Positions 8,992-59,013 of a DNA stretch of 64,000 bases are shown piece after piece. Numbering within the stretch: the first letter of the stretch is position 1; every line of letters begins with the position of its first letter. Under the pieces are notes generated by a model. The model was given only the letters and a program-made list of their open reading frames with translations, did not search any database and had not been told where the DNA came from. The translations under genes and the position numbers were made by a program. Source of the stretch: Nitrososphaerota archaeon (lineage in GTDB: Archaea > Thermoproteota > EX4484-205 > JAAOZP01); contig JAAOZP010000014.1 of NCBI GenBank assembly GCA_011605725.1, positions 62,001 through 126,000 of the forward strand, written 5' to 3'.

Positions 8992-9627
8992 TCAATCCTT
9001 TGAAAAATATTTTTTAAGAAAGCTGATGACACTATTCTGAGCTGTTTTAGCGGCAGCAAGGTCCGGACTTTCTCCATTGGTCTCAATAAGGATGCATGCG
9101 CTGTCAAAACCATGAAGGCTTGCGAGCCCAGGAATTAGGCCTGCAGCTCCCACGACTGTACCCCTTAAAGGCAGGAACCCGAGGGAGGCACCAAGCATCG
9201 AGATCCTCCAATTAGTAGAGGAAATATAGACCCTTCTTTTCTCACCAACCCGTGTTATAGCATACCCGCCTATGCCTATGATGATCCTTATTCCAGATTC
9301 CTCCGCAACCTCTATCAGTCTCCTGGCTAACTCATACTGGTTAAATTGAGTAGTAGGCTGGGAGACGCCTCTGACTATAGTGATGCCCTTAAACTCTCCT
9401 GTGCTGATTTTGTTGATAGTTATTTTCGGAGGAGTTATCAGGCCCTCTCTAGAGGTTACTGATACGTAGAGGAGAGACTCAGGGTAAAGCTCCAGAATCG
9501 GAATGTTTTCAACAGCAGACTCCATGAGCAGCTCGCCTGTTAACGAGCCTACGAGACCGATACCCGGGAGGCATATCAGCATACAGTCTGCAGTCCAAGC
9601 CTCTTTTCTAAGAACTTTCTCCAGCAA
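8992..9627 (-). CDS. PAC2-family protein (proteasome-assembly-chaperone-like)
   Basis: 211 aa with the PAC2 layout: an N-terminal strand CMLICLPGIGLVGSLTGELL, a YPESLLYVSVTSR segment, a glycine-rich IIIGIGGYAI strand and GTVVGAAGLIPGLA near residues 160-175. Archaeal PAC2 homologues resemble the eukaryotic proteasome assembly chaperone 2; their partners are mostly unproven. It is convergent with the Sm-like gene. Confidence 0.8.
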   Translation of the reverse strand: MLEKVLRKEAWTADCMLICLPGIGLVGSLTGELLMESAVENIPILELYPESLLYVSVTSREGLITPPKITINKISTGEFKGITIVRGVSQPTTQFNQYELARRLIEVAEESGIRIIIGIGGYAITRVGEKRRVYISSTNWRISMLGASLGFLPLRGTVVGAAGLIPGLASLHGFDSACILIETNGESPDLAAAKTAQNSVISFLKKYFSKD

Positions 9628-9820
9628 TCCTTTTACCCCCTGGAAAGCCCCGGGTCCTATTAAAGCTTTTTAATTAAACTCGGTTGCGATACTACTTCCA
9701 CCAACCCCCATTCTTCAAGTGCTAGGTTCCAGCAAGAGGGTTTAGAGGTAGAAGCGGGTTGGATGCTAGAGTCTTGTTGCAGCACGCGGTGCCCAAGTAA
9801 AAAGGGGAAAGATTTCTTAG

Positions 9821-10060
9821 TCACGTTTTAATCATGTATTCGGAGTATGGGTCATACCAGTAGAAGTCACTCGACTTAGCAAGCCTCCTAGCAGATCTGA
9901 TTAGAGTGAAGGGCCACGCATGTATTTCATGCCTGAGCTGCCTCACGGGACAGTGATAAGCATGAAGAAGTAGGCTGAAATATATGCTGTAGCAATATGG
10001 TAGATCCTTAGTAAGGAGATTATGGGAGTTTAAAAGGAACTCCAGGGGAGAGTTAAAACT
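9821..10060 (-). pseudogene. Probable gene remnant without a start codon
   Basis: Between the PAC2 gene and the beta-CASP RNase lie about 470 nt. The minus frame ending at TGA 9823-9821 is open to about 10060 and reads as plausible protein, with segments such as HEIHAWPFTLIRSARRLAK and DFYWYDPYSEYM, but has no usable ATG, GTG or TTG before residue 45 or so. The family is not recognised. I read it as the 3' remnant of a lost gene. The rest of this gap shows nothing I can support. Confidence 0.35.
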
Positions 10061-10070
10061 TTAAATAAAG
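10061..10070 (+). promoter_or_regulatory. TATA box of the beta-CASP RNase gene
   Basis: TTTAAATAAA lies about 35-40 nt before the ATG at 10102, which places the start near 10090. Confidence 0.45.
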
Positions 10071-10101
10071 ACCTGGAGAAAGCGTTGAAGAGGATTAAAA
10101 C

Positions 10102-11358
10102 ATGCTTATAAAATTTCTAGGCGGAGTACGCGAAGTAGGGAGGTCAGCCATTTACTTGGCGGGTCGGGAGAAACGCCTCCTGCTAGACGCTGGAGTAATG
10201 CTCTCCGGGAGGCAGGTTAAATACCCCATGCACATCCCGCCAAGAGAAGTAGACGGCATAATCATAACTCACGCTCATCTTGATCATGTTGGAGCTGCAC
10301 CCATATTCTTCATAAGTGGAGGGAGAGAATCCTTCCTAACGAGTTTAACAGCACCACTTGCTAAACTTATATTGCTGGACTTCATCCGGGTGTCGAAGGA
10401 AACCGTTCCATTCGAAGTTCTTGAAGTAGACAAGTTTGTAAGCAGGTCGAGAAAGCTCAGTTACCAAGAGGAGTACTCTAGAGACGGCTTTAAACTCGTC
10501 TTCCTGTCAGCAGGCCATACTCCTGGAGGAGGACAGGTTTTACTCGAGCTTGACGGGAGAAGGGTGCTCTACACGGGGGACATTAACACTGTTGAAACAA
10601 CTCTGCTTAAAGGCGCTTATACTGATTATCCTCCGGTTGACGTAGCGGTTGTTGAAAGCACTTACGCAAATAAGAATCACCCGCCTAGGGAGGAGGTTGA
10701 GGCGAAGTTCGTTAGAAAACTCGGCGAAACCGTTGAAAGAGGCGGTATAGCGCTTGTCCCAGCCTTCGGCCTAGGAAGGTCTCAGGAAGTAATAACGATA
10801 CTTGCTAAACACGGTTTTCCCCATGACGTTTATTATGACGGCATGGCTAGGACTGTGACCGAGATACTTTTTGATTTCCCAGAATGGCTGTCTCACCCCG
10901 ACCTTCTTGAGAAAGCAGCTAGGCAAGTTATATGGATAACCACGCAAAGACAGAGGGAGGAAGCCTTAAAGAGGCCCGGAGTGATCGTTACGCCAGCCGG
11001 GATGCTTCAAGGAGGCCCTGTCAACTTCTACCTTAAAGAGGTTGGGAAGTCTGACAGGAACCTGATAGCGTTCGTCAGCTATCAGGTTGAAGGGACTCCG
11101 GGAAGGCTTCTCTTGGAGAAGAAAATAGTATCAGTGGATGGGAAACTGGCTAAGGTCAAGGCGGAGGTGAAGCATTTCGAGCTTTCTTCGCACAGCGGGA
11201 AGGATCAGCTTGAGGAATTGGTAAGTAGGATTAAGGCGGAGAAAACCTTCATAGTTCACGGTGATTCGGATAACTGTGAGAAGCTGGCGGAATACGCTAG
11301 GAAGCGTCTTGGTCTTGACGCAGTAGCACCGGAGCTCGGAGAGAGCTATTCCATCTAG
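10102..11358 (+). CDS. beta-CASP metallo-beta-lactamase ribonuclease (aCPSF2-like)
   Basis: 418 aa with the MBL motif HAHLDH near residue 57, a second histidine motif SAGHTPGGGQ, the YTGDIN aspartate motif, the beta-CASP region, and C-terminal SSHSGKDQL and FIVHGD motifs (RMMBL). No N-terminal KH domains are present, so it is aCPSF2-like rather than aCPSF1, which carries KH domains. Such enzymes process or degrade RNA 3' and 5' ends. Confidence 0.85.
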   Translation: MLIKFLGGVREVGRSAIYLAGREKRLLLDAGVMLSGRQVKYPMHIPPREVDGIIITHAHLDHVGAAPIFFISGGRESFLTSLTAPLAKLILLDFIRVSKETVPFEVLEVDKFVSRSRKLSYQEEYSRDGFKLVFLSAGHTPGGGQVLLELDGRRVLYTGDINTVETTLLKGAYTDYPPVDVAVVESTYANKNHPPREEVEAKFVRKLGETVERGGIALVPAFGLGRSQEVITILAKHGFPHDVYYDGMARTVTEILFDFPEWLSHPDLLEKAARQVIWITTQRQREEALKRPGVIVTPAGMLQGGPVNFYLKEVGKSDRNLIAFVSYQVEGTPGRLLLEKKIVSVDGKLAKVKAEVKHFELSSHSGKDQLEELVSRIKAEKTFIVHGDSDNCEKLAEYARKRLGLDAVAPELGESYSI

Positions 11359-14713: not shown

Positions 14714-15406
14714 ATGGCTAGGGATTACCGTGAAGAGGTCCGTAGGCTTTACGACACCATATCTGAGGAGTTTGACAGAACAAGGATTAAGCCAGACCCT
14801 TTTCTTGAAACGCTGGTTAAAAGAGGTTTTTCAAGAAGAACCCGCTTAATACTTGATAATGGTTGCGGAAACTGTAGGAACCTGAAAGCGTTTGACAAGG
14901 AATGCATCATGATTGCAGGAGACTTTTCCAGAAGCATGCTTAAACAATGTGTGAAAAACGTTTCTGCAAGAGAGGTTCACTACGTGCAGTATGACTTAAC
15001 ACGTCTCCCTTTTAGAAACAGGGTTTTCGACAGTATAATATGTGTTTCAGCAATACATCATTTGAAGGAGGAGGATGTTGAAAAGGCTTTTAGAGAAATG
15101 GGAAGGGTTCTGAGCAACAGGGGATGGATGCTTGCCTCCTCATGGTCAGTAAAGATGACTAGGGATAATAGGTTTCTGCGCAGAGCTAGAAAGATCAGCG
15201 GGAACTATTTCATGGTCAACTGGGGTCCGTACGAGAGGTTTTACTTTCTCATGGATGCTAAAACCCTCGGCGCGATATGCAGGAAGGCAGGCTTCAGGGA
15301 TGCGGTTACTCTAGAATATGGGATGAATAATTACAGTCTAGTGGATAGGAGAACCAGGGAAGCCGGGGCACGTGGAGAGGCTTCAGCCGATGAAAACACT
15401 GGTTAA
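14714..15406 (+). CDS. SAM-dependent methyltransferase (Trm9/ABH8-like class I)
   Basis: 230 aa. The N-terminal Y-D-T-I-S-E-E-F-D motif is followed by SAM-binding LDNGCGNCRNL, acidic loop GDFSRSML, and a post-motif SAIHHL typical of the Trm9 group that modifies wobble uridine in tRNA. I chose ATG 14714, which has a TATA-like CTTATAACT about 26 nt upstream; the ATG at 14651 overlaps the radA promoter. Substrate is inferred from family resemblance. Confidence 0.7.
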   Translation: MARDYREEVRRLYDTISEEFDRTRIKPDPFLETLVKRGFSRRTRLILDNGCGNCRNLKAFDKECIMIAGDFSRSMLKQCVKNVSAREVHYVQYDLTRLPFRNRVFDSIICVSAIHHLKEEDVEKAFREMGRVLSNRGWMLASSWSVKMTRDNRFLRRARKISGNYFMVNWGPYERFYFLMDAKTLGAICRKAGFRDAVTLEYGMNNYSLVDRRTREAGARGEASADENTG

Positions 15407-16553: not shown

Positions 16554-16562
16554 TTAATATAG
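16554..16562 (+). promoter_or_regulatory. TATA box of the leu operon
   Basis: TTAATATAG is the same nine bases found at the ilvB promoter. It predicts transcription from about 16581-16584, exactly at the leader Shine-Dalgarno AGGAGGTG. Confidence 0.6.
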
Positions 16563-16582
16563 TAGTGGAGCGGTCTCCGCTG

Positions 16583-16590
16583 AGGAGGTG
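16583..16590 (+). promoter_or_regulatory. Strong Shine-Dalgarno of the leu leader peptide
   Basis: AGGAGGTG matches the complement of the archaeal 16S 3' end almost perfectly and lies 4 nt before GTG 16595 and 10 nt before ATG 16601. GAGGTGT (16585-16591) can pair with ACACCTC (16653-16659) inside the leader frame, which would hide it. Confidence 0.65.
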
Positions 16591-16594
16591 TATA

Positions 16595-16675
16595 GTGCAC
16601 ATGGCCAGCAACGCCCAAAGGGGGCGAGACTACCTGCGTTGCAGAGACAGCGACACCTCTATCGGAGTCTGCTGA
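16595..16675 (+). CDS. Candidate leu-operon leader peptide (26 aa, A-x-R-G-R-D motif)
   Basis: GTG 16595 to TGA 16673-16675, preceded by a strong Shine-Dalgarno. Residues 7-12 are A-Q-R-G-R-D. The ilvB leader frame has A-P-R-G-R-D at exactly the same residues; of the three base differences in these six codons, two are silent third-position changes (GCC/GCT, CGA/CGG), which supports selection on the peptide. The C-terminal end contains T-S-I-G-V-C. A hairpin (16676-16691) follows the stop, and leuA begins 41 nt after it. Function as a leader peptide is inference; ATG 16601 in the same frame is an alternative start. Confidence 0.6.
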   Translation: MHMASNAQRGRDYLRCRDSDTSIGVC

Positions 16676-16691
16676 AAAACAATATTGTTTT
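16676..16691 (+). promoter_or_regulatory. Hairpin directly after the leu leader frame
   Basis: AAAACA-ATAT-TGTTTT is a perfect inverted repeat immediately after the leader stop codon. The ilvB leader has a comparable hairpin in the same place. It could act as an attenuator or stalling-sensitive element; its A/T-rich stem is weak on its own. Confidence 0.4.
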
Positions 16692-16716
16692 AAACCTGTT
16701 TTAGGAGGGTTTCGTA

Positions 16717-18252
16717 ATGGTTTGGAGAGGATATATTGCTGAGGCTGAAATACCTGGCAGGGTGATTCTTTTCGACACTACTTTAAGAGATGGTGAACAG
16801 ACTCCTGGAGTCGCGCTTACGCCCGAGGACAAGCTTAAGATAGCGAGACAGCTGGACTTGCTTGGAGTACCCGTATTGGAAGCAGGCTTTCCAGCAGCGT
16901 CGCGCGGCGAGGAGGAGGCTATTAAGCAGATAGCTAGAGAAGGGTTGAACGCGGAGGTCGCTGCCTTATCCAGATGCGTGAAGGAGGATGTTGAGAAGAC
17001 TGCTTCAACCGGTGCACGGAGAATACATCTTTTCATAGCAACCTCAGACATACATTTGAATAAGAAGCTGCAGATAAGCAGGGATGAAGCTGTATGCAGA
17101 GCGGTTGAATCCATAGACCTTGCTAAATCCTACGGTATGAAAATAGAGTTTTCAGCTGAGGATGCGACTCGGACGAGCATCGATTTCCTAGTGGAGTTTT
17201 ACAGGAGGGTTGAAGAGGCGGGAGCAAGCATAGTCGACATTCCTGATACTGTTGGTGTTGCAACACCCTTTGCTATGAGGGAGATTGTTAAGAGGGTTCG
17301 CAAAGCCCTGAGGATCCCGGTTGCAGTGCACTGTCACAACGACATGGGTCTAGCAGTTGCGAACACGCTTGCAGGCATTGAGGGCGGAGCCTCTGAGGCG
17401 CATGTAACAATTAATGGACTTGGGGAGAGAGCAGGCAACGCGAGCCTAGAGGAGGTGGCGGTTTCCCTGAAAGTATTGTATGGTGTTGAAACAGGCTTAA
17501 AGTTTAAAGAGATATACAACACTTGCAGGCTTGTCTCACTGATAACTGGCGTAGCAATACCTGTGAATAAGCCTATAGTTGGAGAAAACGCTTTCTCCCA
17601 TGAGAGCGGTATCCATACTCACGGCATACTGGCGTCTCCAGAGACTTACGAGCCTATAGACCCTGGGTTTGTTGGAGCTAGGAGAAAGCTGGTAGCTGGA
17701 AAGCACGCCGGTGTCCACGGGATTTCAGCGCAGCTTGAAGAAATGGGGTACAGGCTTAGTGAGGAGGAGTTGAAACAGGTTCTTAAAATAGTTAAGGATA
17801 TTGGCGACAAGGGTAAGAAGGTTACTGACGCGGAACTCGCCTCGATAGCTGAAAGCGTTATAGGGTACGGGGTCGGTGAGAAGGATCGCATCGAGCTTGA
17901 AGAGCTTCTGGTGGTCACTGGGTTAAACACGACGCCGACAGCAGCAATAAAGATAAGAAGGGGTGAACAGGCTTGGAGAGGAGCGGAGTTCGGAGTGGGG
18001 CCGATAGATGCTTCGATGAAGGCAGTCAGCAAGCTTCTTGGAGACCTGGTTAAGATTAAGCTTGAAAGCTTCAGGTTGGAGGCAATCACGGGAGGCACGG
18101 ATGCGCTTGCAGAAGTTACGGTCAGGGTTTCAGATGAAGAAGGGAGGAGTGTGACTGCGAAGGGATTCAGCGAGGACATTGTGCTAGCAGGGGTTTACGC
18201 GATATTAAACGGGGCTAACAGGCTTCTGCAGATTAAGAGGGCTGGTAGATGA
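16717..18252 (+). CDS. leuA: 2-isopropylmalate synthase (LeuA family)
   Basis: 511 aa. TIM-barrel HMGL-like domain with TTLRDGEQTPG at about residue 21, the HCHNDMGLA metal motif and the GLGERAGNA loop, followed by a C-terminal LeuA regulatory (allosteric) domain from about residue 390. It condenses 2-oxoisovalerate with acetyl-CoA to start leucine synthesis. A citramalate or homocitrate synthase could look similar, but the adjoining leuC and leuD support leucine. AGGAGGG lies 8 nt before the ATG. The end overlaps leuC by 4 nt. Confidence 0.88.
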   Translation: MVWRGYIAEAEIPGRVILFDTTLRDGEQTPGVALTPEDKLKIARQLDLLGVPVLEAGFPAASRGEEEAIKQIAREGLNAEVAALSRCVKEDVEKTASTGARRIHLFIATSDIHLNKKLQISRDEAVCRAVESIDLAKSYGMKIEFSAEDATRTSIDFLVEFYRRVEEAGASIVDIPDTVGVATPFAMREIVKRVRKALRIPVAVHCHNDMGLAVANTLAGIEGGASEAHVTINGLGERAGNASLEEVAVSLKVLYGVETGLKFKEIYNTCRLVSLITGVAIPVNKPIVGENAFSHESGIHTHGILASPETYEPIDPGFVGARRKLVAGKHAGVHGISAQLEEMGYRLSEEELKQVLKIVKDIGDKGKKVTDAELASIAESVIGYGVGEKDRIELEELLVVTGLNTTPTAAIKIRRGEQAWRGAEFGVGPIDASMKAVSKLLGDLVKIKLESFRLEAITGGTDALAEVTVRVSDEEGRSVTAKGFSEDIVLAGVYAILNGANRLLQIKRAGR

Positions 18253-28728: not shown

Positions 28729-30402
28729 CTACCTCCTTACGATGACTCTGTCAAGCGGGGCAGCCGGGGGAACCATTGGGAAAACATTATCCTCTCTCGC
28801 GACAATCACGTCTAACACAGTTGTCTCATCCTGCTTTAAAGCGGTTTCAAGAGCGTTTTTAAGCTCGCTTATCCTCGTCACTTTAAACCCTTTAGCGCCG
28901 AAACCCTCTGAAACCCTAGCTATGTCAGCTCTGCCCTTCAAATCCACAGCCATATACCTCCTGCCGTAGAAAAGCTCCTGCCACTGTCTAACCATGCCCA
29001 GGAAATAATTGTTAAGAACCAAGACTATGATCGGCAGGTTATAGTCTACTGAAACCGGAAGCTGGTTACAAGTCATGAAGAAGCTACCGTCTCCAGCTAT
29101 GTCGAAAACACGGCTCTCCGGGAAGGCTGCTTTAACCCCGATCGCAGCCGGAAGCCCGAAGCCCATTGTGCCAAGTCCGCCGGAGGATATGAATTGTCTC
29201 GGACGCTTAGCTGTAAAGTGGAGTGAAGCATACATCTGGCACTGGCCTACCTCCGTCGTCACAAAGTCTTCAGCCTTAACATAGTCGTTCAGAACCCTTA
29301 CGGCAGTACTTGGATCAACCGGAACAGCATCGTAATCGTAAAGGAACTCAGATTCCTTCTTGAGCTGTTTAACTCTTTCACCCCACGTAGCAGCCTTGCC
29401 CTTCTTGAAAAGCCTGAGAATCGTTTCGCGAATCCTGATTAAAACCTGCTTAGCGTCACCGGCGACGCCAAGGTCGGGCTTAAGCAGCTTCCCGATTTCA
29501 GACCTATCTATGTCAACATGTATCTTCCTCGCTCCCGGGGCGAAGCCGCTTAACTTACCAGTAGTCCTGTCGCTAAACCTCATGCCTACTGCAAGAATCA
29601 GGTCGCTCTCCTGAACAGCCTTGATCGCGCCTAGCTTCCCATGCATTCCAACCATGCCTAGGGACAACGGATGGTCTTCAGGAATGCTTCCCTTGCCCAT
29701 TAGAGTCGTCGCTACGGGAGCGTTTAGAAGCTCAGCAAGGGCGATAAGCTCGCTGGACGCGCCTGATATTATTACTCCGCCTCCAGCTATGATCACAGGC
29801 CTCTCAGCCTCAACCAGCATCTTTGAGACTGTTAGAATCTCCTCGTCGGAGGGAGAGGGAGGAGTATAAGAGTAGATGTAGAAATCGTCATCAGGCTCGC
29901 CCTCCATCAGCTGAACATCCCTAGGGACGTCGATGTGAACAGGCCCAGGTCTTCCGGATAAGGCTATTTTAAAAGCGTTCTCAAGCGCAGAGTTAAGCTC
30001 GTTTAAGTCTCTAGGTAGAAAGTTCATCTTCGTCAACCCTATCATCATCGAGAAAACATTAGCCTCCTGAAAACCGTCGTAACCTATGAGAGGCGTCGCA
30101 ACCTGGCCGGCTATGCTTAAAACCGGCGAGGAATCCAAGTAGGCGTTGGCAATTCCTGTTGCAAGATTAGTGGCGCCAGGGCCGGATGTGGCGACGACAA
30201 CGCCAATCCTGCCGGTTGCCCTAGCATACCCGTCAGCCATGTGGGCAGCACCCTGCTCATGCCTCGCGAGAATGAACTCTATGTCGCCAGCCTTATAAAG
30301 CTCGTCTAGAAACGGGAGCACAGCCCCACCGGGTACTCCGAAGATGGTTTTAACCCCGTTCTCCCTCAGCTTCTCAACTAGTAGTCTAGACCCTGAAACC
30401 AT
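28729..30402 (-). CDS. ilvB: Acetolactate synthase large (catalytic) subunit
   Basis: 557 aa thiamine-diphosphate enzyme: catalytic Glu in RHEQGAAHMADGYARATG, FAD/quinone-like middle domain, and the ThDP motif GDGSFFMTCNQLPVSVDYNLPIIVLVLNN. It makes acetolactate or acetohydroxybutyrate. I chose ATG 30402, preceded by GAGGTG at 6-nt spacing; the in-frame TTG at 30420 lies over that site. First structural gene of the operon. Confidence 0.95.
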   Translation of the reverse strand: MVSGSRLLVEKLRENGVKTIFGVPGGAVLPFLDELYKAGDIEFILARHEQGAAHMADGYARATGRIGVVVATSGPGATNLATGIANAYLDSSPVLSIAGQVATPLIGYDGFQEANVFSMMIGLTKMNFLPRDLNELNSALENAFKIALSGRPGPVHIDVPRDVQLMEGEPDDDFYIYSYTPPSPSDEEILTVSKMLVEAERPVIIAGGGVIISGASSELIALAELLNAPVATTLMGKGSIPEDHPLSLGMVGMHGKLGAIKAVQESDLILAVGMRFSDRTTGKLSGFAPGARKIHVDIDRSEIGKLLKPDLGVAGDAKQVLIRIRETILRLFKKGKAATWGERVKQLKKESEFLYDYDAVPVDPSTAVRVLNDYVKAEDFVTTEVGQCQMYASLHFTAKRPRQFISSGGLGTMGFGLPAAIGVKAAFPESRVFDIAGDGSFFMTCNQLPVSVDYNLPIIVLVLNNYFLGMVRQWQELFYGRRYMAVDLKGRADIARVSEGFGAKGFKVTRISELKNALETALKQDETTVLDVIVAREDNVFPMVPPAAPLDRVIVRR

Positions 30403-30430
30403 TTGAAACACCTCTTGCAAACGGCTTTTT

Positions 30431-30446
30431 GAAAACCACTGTTTTC
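30431..30446 (-). promoter_or_regulatory. Hairpin directly after the ilv leader frame
   Basis: On the minus strand GAAAAC-AGTG-GTTTTC forms a 6-bp stem 1 nt after the leader stop codon, followed by five A. The leu leader has an equally placed 6-bp hairpin with a 4-nt loop. Confidence 0.4.
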
Positions 30447-30447
30447 T

Positions 30448-30531
30448 CTAGCGGAGGCTGGGTTTGCAGCGGGACTCCTGCAGTTGGTGGACGGTGTCCC
30501 GCCCCCTTGGAGCGTGAATATTATGGTACAC
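30448..30531 (-). CDS. Candidate ilv-operon leader peptide (27 aa, A-x-R-G-R-D motif)
   Basis: GTG at 30531 to TAG at 30450-30448, 6 nt after the Shine-Dalgarno AGGAGGTG (30545-30538). Residues 7-12 are A-P-R-G-R-D, aligned without gaps from the start codon with A-Q-R-G-R-D of the leu leader peptide. The bases around the motif form a possible hairpin CGCTCC-AAG-GGGGCG, also present in the leu leader (CGCCC/GGGCG). GGAGG of the Shine-Dalgarno can pair with CCTCC (minus strand, 30457-30453) in the last codons. Function is inference. Confidence 0.6.
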   Translation of the reverse strand: MYHNIHAPRGRDTVHQLQESRCKPSLR

Positions 30532-30537
30532 TCAGCG

Positions 30538-30545
30538 CACCTCCT
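30538..30545 (-). promoter_or_regulatory. Strong Shine-Dalgarno of the ilv leader peptide
   Basis: AGGAGGTG, identical to the leu leader element, sits at the predicted 5' end of the transcript and 6 nt before GTG 30531. Confidence 0.6.
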
Positions 30546-30568
30546 AAGCAGTGTGCCCATTGAGAGGC

Positions 30569-30577
30569 CTATATTAA
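30569..30577 (-). promoter_or_regulatory. TATA box of the ilv operon
   Basis: TTAATATAG on the minus strand, identical to the leu-operon box, predicts transcription from about 30549. Confidence 0.6.
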
Positions 30578-58735: not shown

Positions 58736-59013
58736 ACCGGAGAATAGCCGTCAGCCCCGCATATAAGCTGTTCGCCGAGAACTTTTAGACTGAAACCCGG
58801 TGCTTTGGGAACCATGCTTCTAAGGCTGCAAGACGCTGGGTTTCACCCTCCTGCTCTTAAATCTTCCCTTCTCAACCTGTTTTCCCCCAGCAAGATGAAA
58901 AACTCTAATCAAAGCATAACTAGCCCTAGGTTTCTCCATCCATGACGCTCGTCGAAAGGGTTAACGCGAATTAGGTTTAACTTAATATAGTTCCTTTAAA
59001 CGGAGTGAACAGT

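Follow-up and report, generated by a model that had tools for sequence, protein, structure and literature searches.

The window, by which we mean the whole stretch of 64,000 nucleotides that was analyzed, contains two short leader regions that precede genes for branched-chain amino acid synthesis, one upstream of ilvB (minus strand, 30577-30400) and one upstream of leuA (plus strand, 16554-16716). Their parts are listed in Table 1. The ilvB leader open reading frame (ORF) extends from a GTG at 30531 to a TAG at 30450-30448 and encodes VYHNIHAPRGRDTVHQLQESRCKPSLR, a peptide whose residues 7-12 read A-P-R-G-R-D; a repeat, GAAAAC...GTTTTC, lies 3' of the stop codon. The leuA leader (VHMASNAQRGRDYLRCRDSDTSIGVC) has the same layout, and the Val codon (30492) of the one leader and the Leu codon (16634) of the other are equidistant from the AGGGGG run. 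The ORF located past ilvD is an exonuclease-like gene and not leuB. An initial annotation had described matching leaders in front of the two genes, and these are real, as the box, the Shine-Dalgarno (SD) sequence, the short ORF, the A-P-R-G-R-D sequence and the post-stop repeat were each recovered in place. It had further pointed to a shared box and to a shared sequence at a predicted transcript start; both elements are present, but TTAATATAG fits the archaeal TATA consensus and is a TATA box of the usual kind, and AGGAGGTG (four copies in the window, 2.1 expected) is an SD rather than a transcript start. A third copy of TTAATATAG occurs at 58982-58990, just 5' of an ORF at 59005; it is a plain TATA box, and the gene behind it is probably leaderless.

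Table 1. Coordinates of the leader features and main genes in the window.
Feature	Position	Strand	Remark
TATA box, leuA leader promoter	16554..16562	+	
SD of leuA leader ORF	16583..16590	+	
leuA leader ORF, frame 0	16595..16675	+	26 codons + stop
Internal SD-like run AGGGGGCGA, leuA leader	16619..16627	+	
Proposed Leu sensor codon CTG, preceded by TAC	16634..16636	+	CTG in 7/7 genus loci
+1 frame of leuA leader, open from Leu codon to TGA 16740-16742	16635..16742	+	
leuA	16717..18252	+	Followed by leuC, leuD
ilvB	28729..30402	-	Followed by ilvN, ilvC, ilvD; no leu gene
+1 frame of ilvB leader, open from Val codon to TAG 30380-30378	30378..30491	-	
SD of ilvB (GAGGTG)	30409..30414	-	ATG at 30402-30400
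ilvB leader ORF, frame 0	30448..30531	-	27 codons + stop
Proposed Val sensor codon GTC, preceded by ACC	30490..30492	-	GTC in 8/8 genus loci; also in G009, a genome of the same order
Internal SD-like run AGGGGGCGG (codons RGR), ilvB leader	30499..30507	-	Compare prfB stimulator AGGGGG
SD AGGAGGTG of ilvB leader ORF	30538..30545	-	GGAGGTG conserved in 8/8 genus loci
TATA box TTAATATAG, ilvB leader promoter	30569..30577	-	Promoter role suggested by position

Among the eight genomes of the window's genus, the leader is present before ilvB at 8/8 loci and before leuA at 7/7 (one genome yielded no full leuA locus), which agrees with the earlier judgement that chance is an unlikely cause. Four of these leuA leaders begin at an ATG located two codons later, for which reason they fail an automatic SD-distance rule and were added by hand. 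The initial annotation had allowed that the similarity might disappear in close relatives or belong to a dispersed repeat; both leaders recur in the genus and do not belong to a dispersed repeat, and a DNA pattern for the core matched 17 places in the eight genomes, 15 of which are exactly at ilvB or leuA leaders. As the backward control of this pattern likewise gave 17 matches, it is the places of the matches that count and not their number. An exact DNA pattern run against 300 genomes gave 10 matches, five of them ilvB leaders. Within the window's genus, no such leader stands before the genus's own trpE or leuS.

The distribution in the phylum was followed by family, numbered from f1, the family of the window. 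The sequence 5' of ilvB in 81 genome/gene pairs and of leuA in 61 was scanned for short ORFs that have an SD and encode an R-D-x-x-L-like core. This gave ilvB leaders in f1 (8/8), f5 (18/20), f14 (18/18), f22 (1/1) and f30 (2/9), and leuA leaders in f1 (3/7, or 7/7 by eye), f20 (2/2) and f32 (1/2, or 2/2 by eye). The same scan gave no ilvB leader in f4, f7, f8, f11, f12, f16, f18, f20, f23 or f29, and no leuA leader in f3, f5, f7, f11, f12, f14, f16, f18, f22, f23, f30, f34, f35, f37-f39 or f41-f44. Three of its misses were recovered later, namely G124 (f5), by a covariance model, and both f29 genomes, which carry a version with an Ile codon. The covariance model R1 matched 56 of 398 phylum genomes at E<=0.01, and besides ilvB its matches include leaders of leuS, leuC and one trpE: in f31 and f28 the leucyl-tRNA synthetase gene is preceded by leaders of the MRDRFLNRN type (with two more from the scan of leuS loci described below), in f30 leuC is preceded by LRDRFLHR, and in G035 trpE is preceded by MRDRVWAFLH. 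Among 20 further regions with R1 matches, several of the weak matches (E about 1e-4 to 1e-2) are false and fall within long ORFs. In a separate set of 20 fetched regions the element is present in nine, including five f5 genomes outside the 81/61-pair scan. In G009, a genome of the window's order, VRCTRGRYPVYQILCVL precedes ilvB and contains a window-like core, AGGGGGCGATACCCCGTC. When 800 kb of G415 was scanned, six candidates outside long ORFs had AGG or GGG as codon 2, a looser scan returned 26 rows, and a convincing full layout was seen at ilvB and trpE only. A search with IlvB in named organisms retrieved bacterial and other archaeal proteins of 40-50% identity, and no leader of the narrower motif was seen in those organisms. 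Rfam, its T-box family included, gave no match around the window leaders at E up to 10, and none at the leaders in 10 loci.

Across families the leaders share a scaffold, a short ORF with its own SD, within which stand an SD-like run and a single sensor codon that matches the product. The start codon, preceded by its SD, is nearly always ATG or GTG and is followed shortly downstream by an AGGG or GGGG run; the matching codon is single and occupies a fixed place relative to this G-run, with no run of regulatory codons. Which amino acid the codon specifies varies with the gene. Leucine codons are found in leuA leaders (CTG in f1; CTT in both f20 loci; CTC and CTT in f32), in leuC and leuS leaders, and in the ilvB leaders of f5, f14, f22 and f30, where the operons that were looked at (f14 and f22) carry leu genes too. 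A valine codon is found in the ilvB leaders of the window genus and of G009, and both here and in the G009 region the operon of the window genus finds its match in having ilvC and ilvD, but no leu genes, next to ilvB. Isoleucine codons (ATC and ATT) occupy the position in f29 ilvB leaders, whose operon includes leuC and leuD, and tryptophan is specified in trpE leaders. These identities qualify the proposal, made from the window alone, that the two leaders place valine, leucine and isoleucine synthesis under joint control: a single, conserved type of cis-leader does serve branched-chain amino acid synthesis, but control is not strictly joint, as the aligned sensor codon is CTG (Leu) in one leader and GTC (Val) in the other.

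The main feature of the leaders is their +1 reading frame, which is absent from the initial annotation. In the window, the +1-frame TAG of the ilvB leader is positioned 22 nt beyond the first base of the ilvB ATG, and the +1-frame TGA of the leuA leader 23 nt beyond that of the leuA ATG (16717-16719). The relation was counted in a set of 59 leaders (53 automatic, six by hand), 49 of which had a main start identifiable by the SD rule and 10 of which were left out; for each, the first +1 stop past the last Leu of the core was located and its distance to the main start recorded. In all 49 ilvB and leuA leaders, which are related to each other, the +1 frame remains open until it meets a stop at -9 to +23 nt relative to the main start, as compared to none for frame 0, nine for frame +2 and an expectation of 8.2 open in +1 after dinucleotide shuffling of the spacer. 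The +1 stop overlaps the main start as ATGA (stop at +1) in 10 of the 49, and the +1 frame of leuC leaders in three related genomes likewise ends as ATGA. Other SD-led short ORFs before genes were +1-open in 4/19 cases in G415 and in 6/19 rows of a second region set (six rows that represent four distinct ORFs, one being the G009 ilvB leader itself), so a single case proves nothing and it is unanimity across families that carries the evidence.

The frame relation takes a more direct form before trpE and leuS, for which 27 trpE loci (in 26 genomes) and 30 leuS loci were obtained from a sample of 42 chosen genomes. A leader of the form M-[RGS]-[DNY]-x-[VILF]-Trp, with Trp as codon 6, precedes 21 of the 27 trpE loci; none was found at the other six (G000, G002, G007, both loci of G064, and G028). 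In 21/21 cases trpE lies in the +1 frame of the leader ORF, that frame is free of stops from the Trp codon to the gene, and codon 5 is NUU, giving a putative shift site NUU-UGG. Six of these trpE genes (G049, G410, G103, G418, G097 and G121) have no ATG, GTG or TTG upstream in their frame, and in G064, which is without the Trp leader, trpE has an ordinary in-frame ATG at the corresponding place. Leaders precede leuS at seven of the 30 scanned loci (those without one include f1, f14, f20 and most of f5) and in G090, which was found separately; in all eight, leuS lies in the +1 frame, in which no stop occurs from the leader's fourth base to the gene. The leucyl-tRNA synthetases of three phylum genomes are of the archaeal type (TIGR00395).

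The conserved layout, the identity of the sensor codon, the frame relations and the start codons missing from some trpE genes form the observed basis on which, judging from sequence, we consider it likely that the leaders act as amino acid sensors by way of programmed +1 ribosomal frameshifting. A ribosome would initiate on the short SD-led ORF and soon meet the single sensor codon. With charged tRNA plentiful, the codon would be read, frame 0 kept, and translation ended at a stop a few codons on, well before the main gene; with charged tRNA scarce, the empty A site together with the upstream SD-like run would favor a slip of one base forward. The shifted ribosome would then either reach the +1 stop at the main start codon and turn the gene on by translational coupling (ilvB, leuA and leuC), or continue straight into the main gene in the +1 frame (trpE and leuS). 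The position of the shift at the sensor codon, its dependence on scarce charged tRNA and the activation of the gene by coupling or fusion are predictions of this scheme. A point against it is that, where the main gene has a good SD of its own, translation could begin there without help. Taken over the phylum, the leaders are likely to represent a modular archaeal system in which one scaffold would convert a lack of charged tRNA into a +1 shift onto genes that relieve it, including that for leucyl-tRNA synthetase, and in which a codon swap would re-target the switch among Leu, Ile, Val and Trp.

The sequences around the predicted shift site can be compared with known frameshifting systems. In the leaders examined, an SD-like AGGG, GGGG or AGGGGG lies a few nt 5' of the P-site codon, this run being weaker in a few trpE leaders (e.g. 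G149 and G025). Bacterial prfB, which encodes release factor 2 (RF2), uses +1 programmed frameshifting at the shift site CUU-UGA with the stimulator AGGGGG. The trpE leaders (GGGGUAUCNNCUUUGG) closely resemble this region, and the likeness extends to an upstream SD-like run and to NUU in the P site ahead of a codon that would be read slowly, as well as to the predicted +1 shift and feedback by the decoding factor. However, prfB senses RF2 at a stop codon, whereas the archaeal leaders would sense an amino acid at a sense codon, stand before biosynthesis and tRNA-charging genes, and often would act via coupling to a separate gene. The shift region of the Leu and Val leaders is NNY-CUN or NCC-GUC, where re-pairing in the P-site after a +1 shift is often poor (for instance CAC to ACC, or UAC to ACC), which counts against the scheme, since for these leaders an out-of-frame A-site mechanism must be assumed. 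Such a case is known from the Ty3-type +1 frameshifting of a yeast retrotransposon, which works at a fixed ratio with a slow A-site codon and no good P-site re-pairing, as CAC-CUC would need. Bacterial trp, leu and ilv attenuators have a short leader ORF with several regulatory codons matching the product and alternative terminator hairpins; where these use several codons and terminators, the archaeal leaders have one codon and would use a change of frame.

Published precedents cover parts of this scheme. Under telithromycin, frameshifting in the ermC leader ORF lets ribosomes enter the spacer and opens the main gene (PMC5009743); a gene can thus be opened by a frameshift in its leader, although this case is drug-induced, bacterial and without an amino acid sensor codon (PMC5009743). 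Frameshifting in the E. coli pheL leader resembles the present case in taking place within an amino acid leader ORF, but it occurs at the last codon before the stop and was judged incidental (PMC5009743). Programmed frameshifting in an archaeon is described for Saccharolobus solfataricus fucA (PMC8037382); as described there, it is a -1 event within one enzyme gene and involves neither a leader nor an amino acid sensor. According to the same source (PMC8037382), the unequivocal cases of archaeal recoding were, as of 2021, confined to selenocysteine, pyrrolysine and a single -1 frameshift. Our literature search found no archaeal leader-ORF attenuator for amino acids. If the scheme is true, cells have a means of amino acid sensing that is new, in which hungry-codon frameshifting, long studied as error, would be a designed signal. 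Gene callers will misplace or miss the starts of trpE and leuS in these genomes, and the leader parts are tiny and suited to reporter testing.

A classical leader-peptide attenuator, in which a ribosome stalled at the sensor codon alters RNA pairing between anti-SD stretches and the leader or main SD without any frameshift, is an improbable alternative, although it shares with programmed frameshifting a single sensor codon that matches the product. CCUC or ACCUCC stretches could pair with the leader SD or the main SD in several leaders, and a hairpin spans the Leu core, where it is conserved and shows changes on both strands of the stem. This hairpin (AGG:CCU) joins the Arg codon to bases around the Leu codon; among 39 distinct cores, 96.4% of cells are paired as compared to 57-77% in slid controls, and 18 cells changed on both sides, a number reached in 0/500 shuffles, these paired changes resting on few independent lineages. 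The conserved hairpin has no role in the frameshifting scheme. As a common scaffold it is well supported in the Leu leaders, but its absence from most trpE leaders and its disruption by the Ile codon of f29, where the rest is retained, mean that the leaders do not share it as their mechanism. Folding of single leaders suggested that the main SD is sequestered, but the shuffle control disagreed: in 28 of the 49 leaders the main SD was predicted to be unpaired at 0.27 as compared to 0.31 in shuffles, so that pairing is no stronger than in shuffled sequence. Alignments of f5 and f14 gave no conserved structure 3' of the leader core, terminator/antiterminator hairpins included. Attenuation also leaves unexplained the +1 frame that stays open as far as the main start in 49/49 leaders, the placement of trpE and leuS in this very frame, and the trpE genes that are without a start codon.

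It is even less probable that RGRD or RDx[YFH]L is an active motif through which the leaders work by nascent-peptide arrest or as a metabolite-binding RNA. The sequence R-D-x-aromatic-L does recur before ilvB, leuA, leuC and leuS in several families, and the core nucleotides are strongly conserved, with nearly invariant third codon positions. However, constraint at the amino acid level is weak in f1 and f14: pN/pS of the leader ORF is 0.89 (ilvB) and 1.01 (leuA) in f1 and 0.89 in f14, as compared to 0.41-0.61 in f5. Overlapping reading frames would also explain why codon periodicity is missing. Conservation is confined to the SD, start, G-run and sensor region. Elsewhere RD is replaced by RN, RS, RA, GY, GN or SD, and with values of about 0.9-1.0 within the genus the RGRD peptide emphasized by the initial annotation is not supported as the common active part. 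Moreover, Rfam holds no match, and the sensor residue tracks the gene rather than a fixed ligand. Least likely of all is that overlapping signals produce the short ORFs as a mere side effect, with trpE and leuS using unusual starts or downstream promoters and the +1 openness before ilvB due to chance, since a TATA-like stretch directly 5' of the leuS ATG and a rate of roughly 20-30% for +1-open short ORFs by chance are outweighed by frame counts of 49/49, 21/21 and 8/8, by conservation limited to the signal elements named above, and by a sensor identity that tracks the gene.

Several further observations were made at these loci. At leuS loci L364-L369, AAAACNTTTAATA is conserved between the leader and the leuS ATG; it is not in L387. 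It reads KTFN in the +1 frame and also resembles a BRE/TATA promoter, and it could be a promoter. G002, a genome of the window genus, carries two nearly full-length leucyl-tRNA synthetase genes (C30 and C5); G007 shows three partial ones. A submotif, GGGAUNNNCGGGUAY, lies 5' of the core in f14 ilvB leaders but 3' of the core in those of f5, which looks like an exchange of order between two units. In G009 (L160, about 9573-10963), ilvB is seemingly split by a stop or frame change near 10181-10205. Finally, in G010 (L161) an SD-led short ORF at 14892 on the minus strand, encoding MRRRDMSLRRR, precedes a 505-codon ORF, and its +1 frame ends at the start of that gene.
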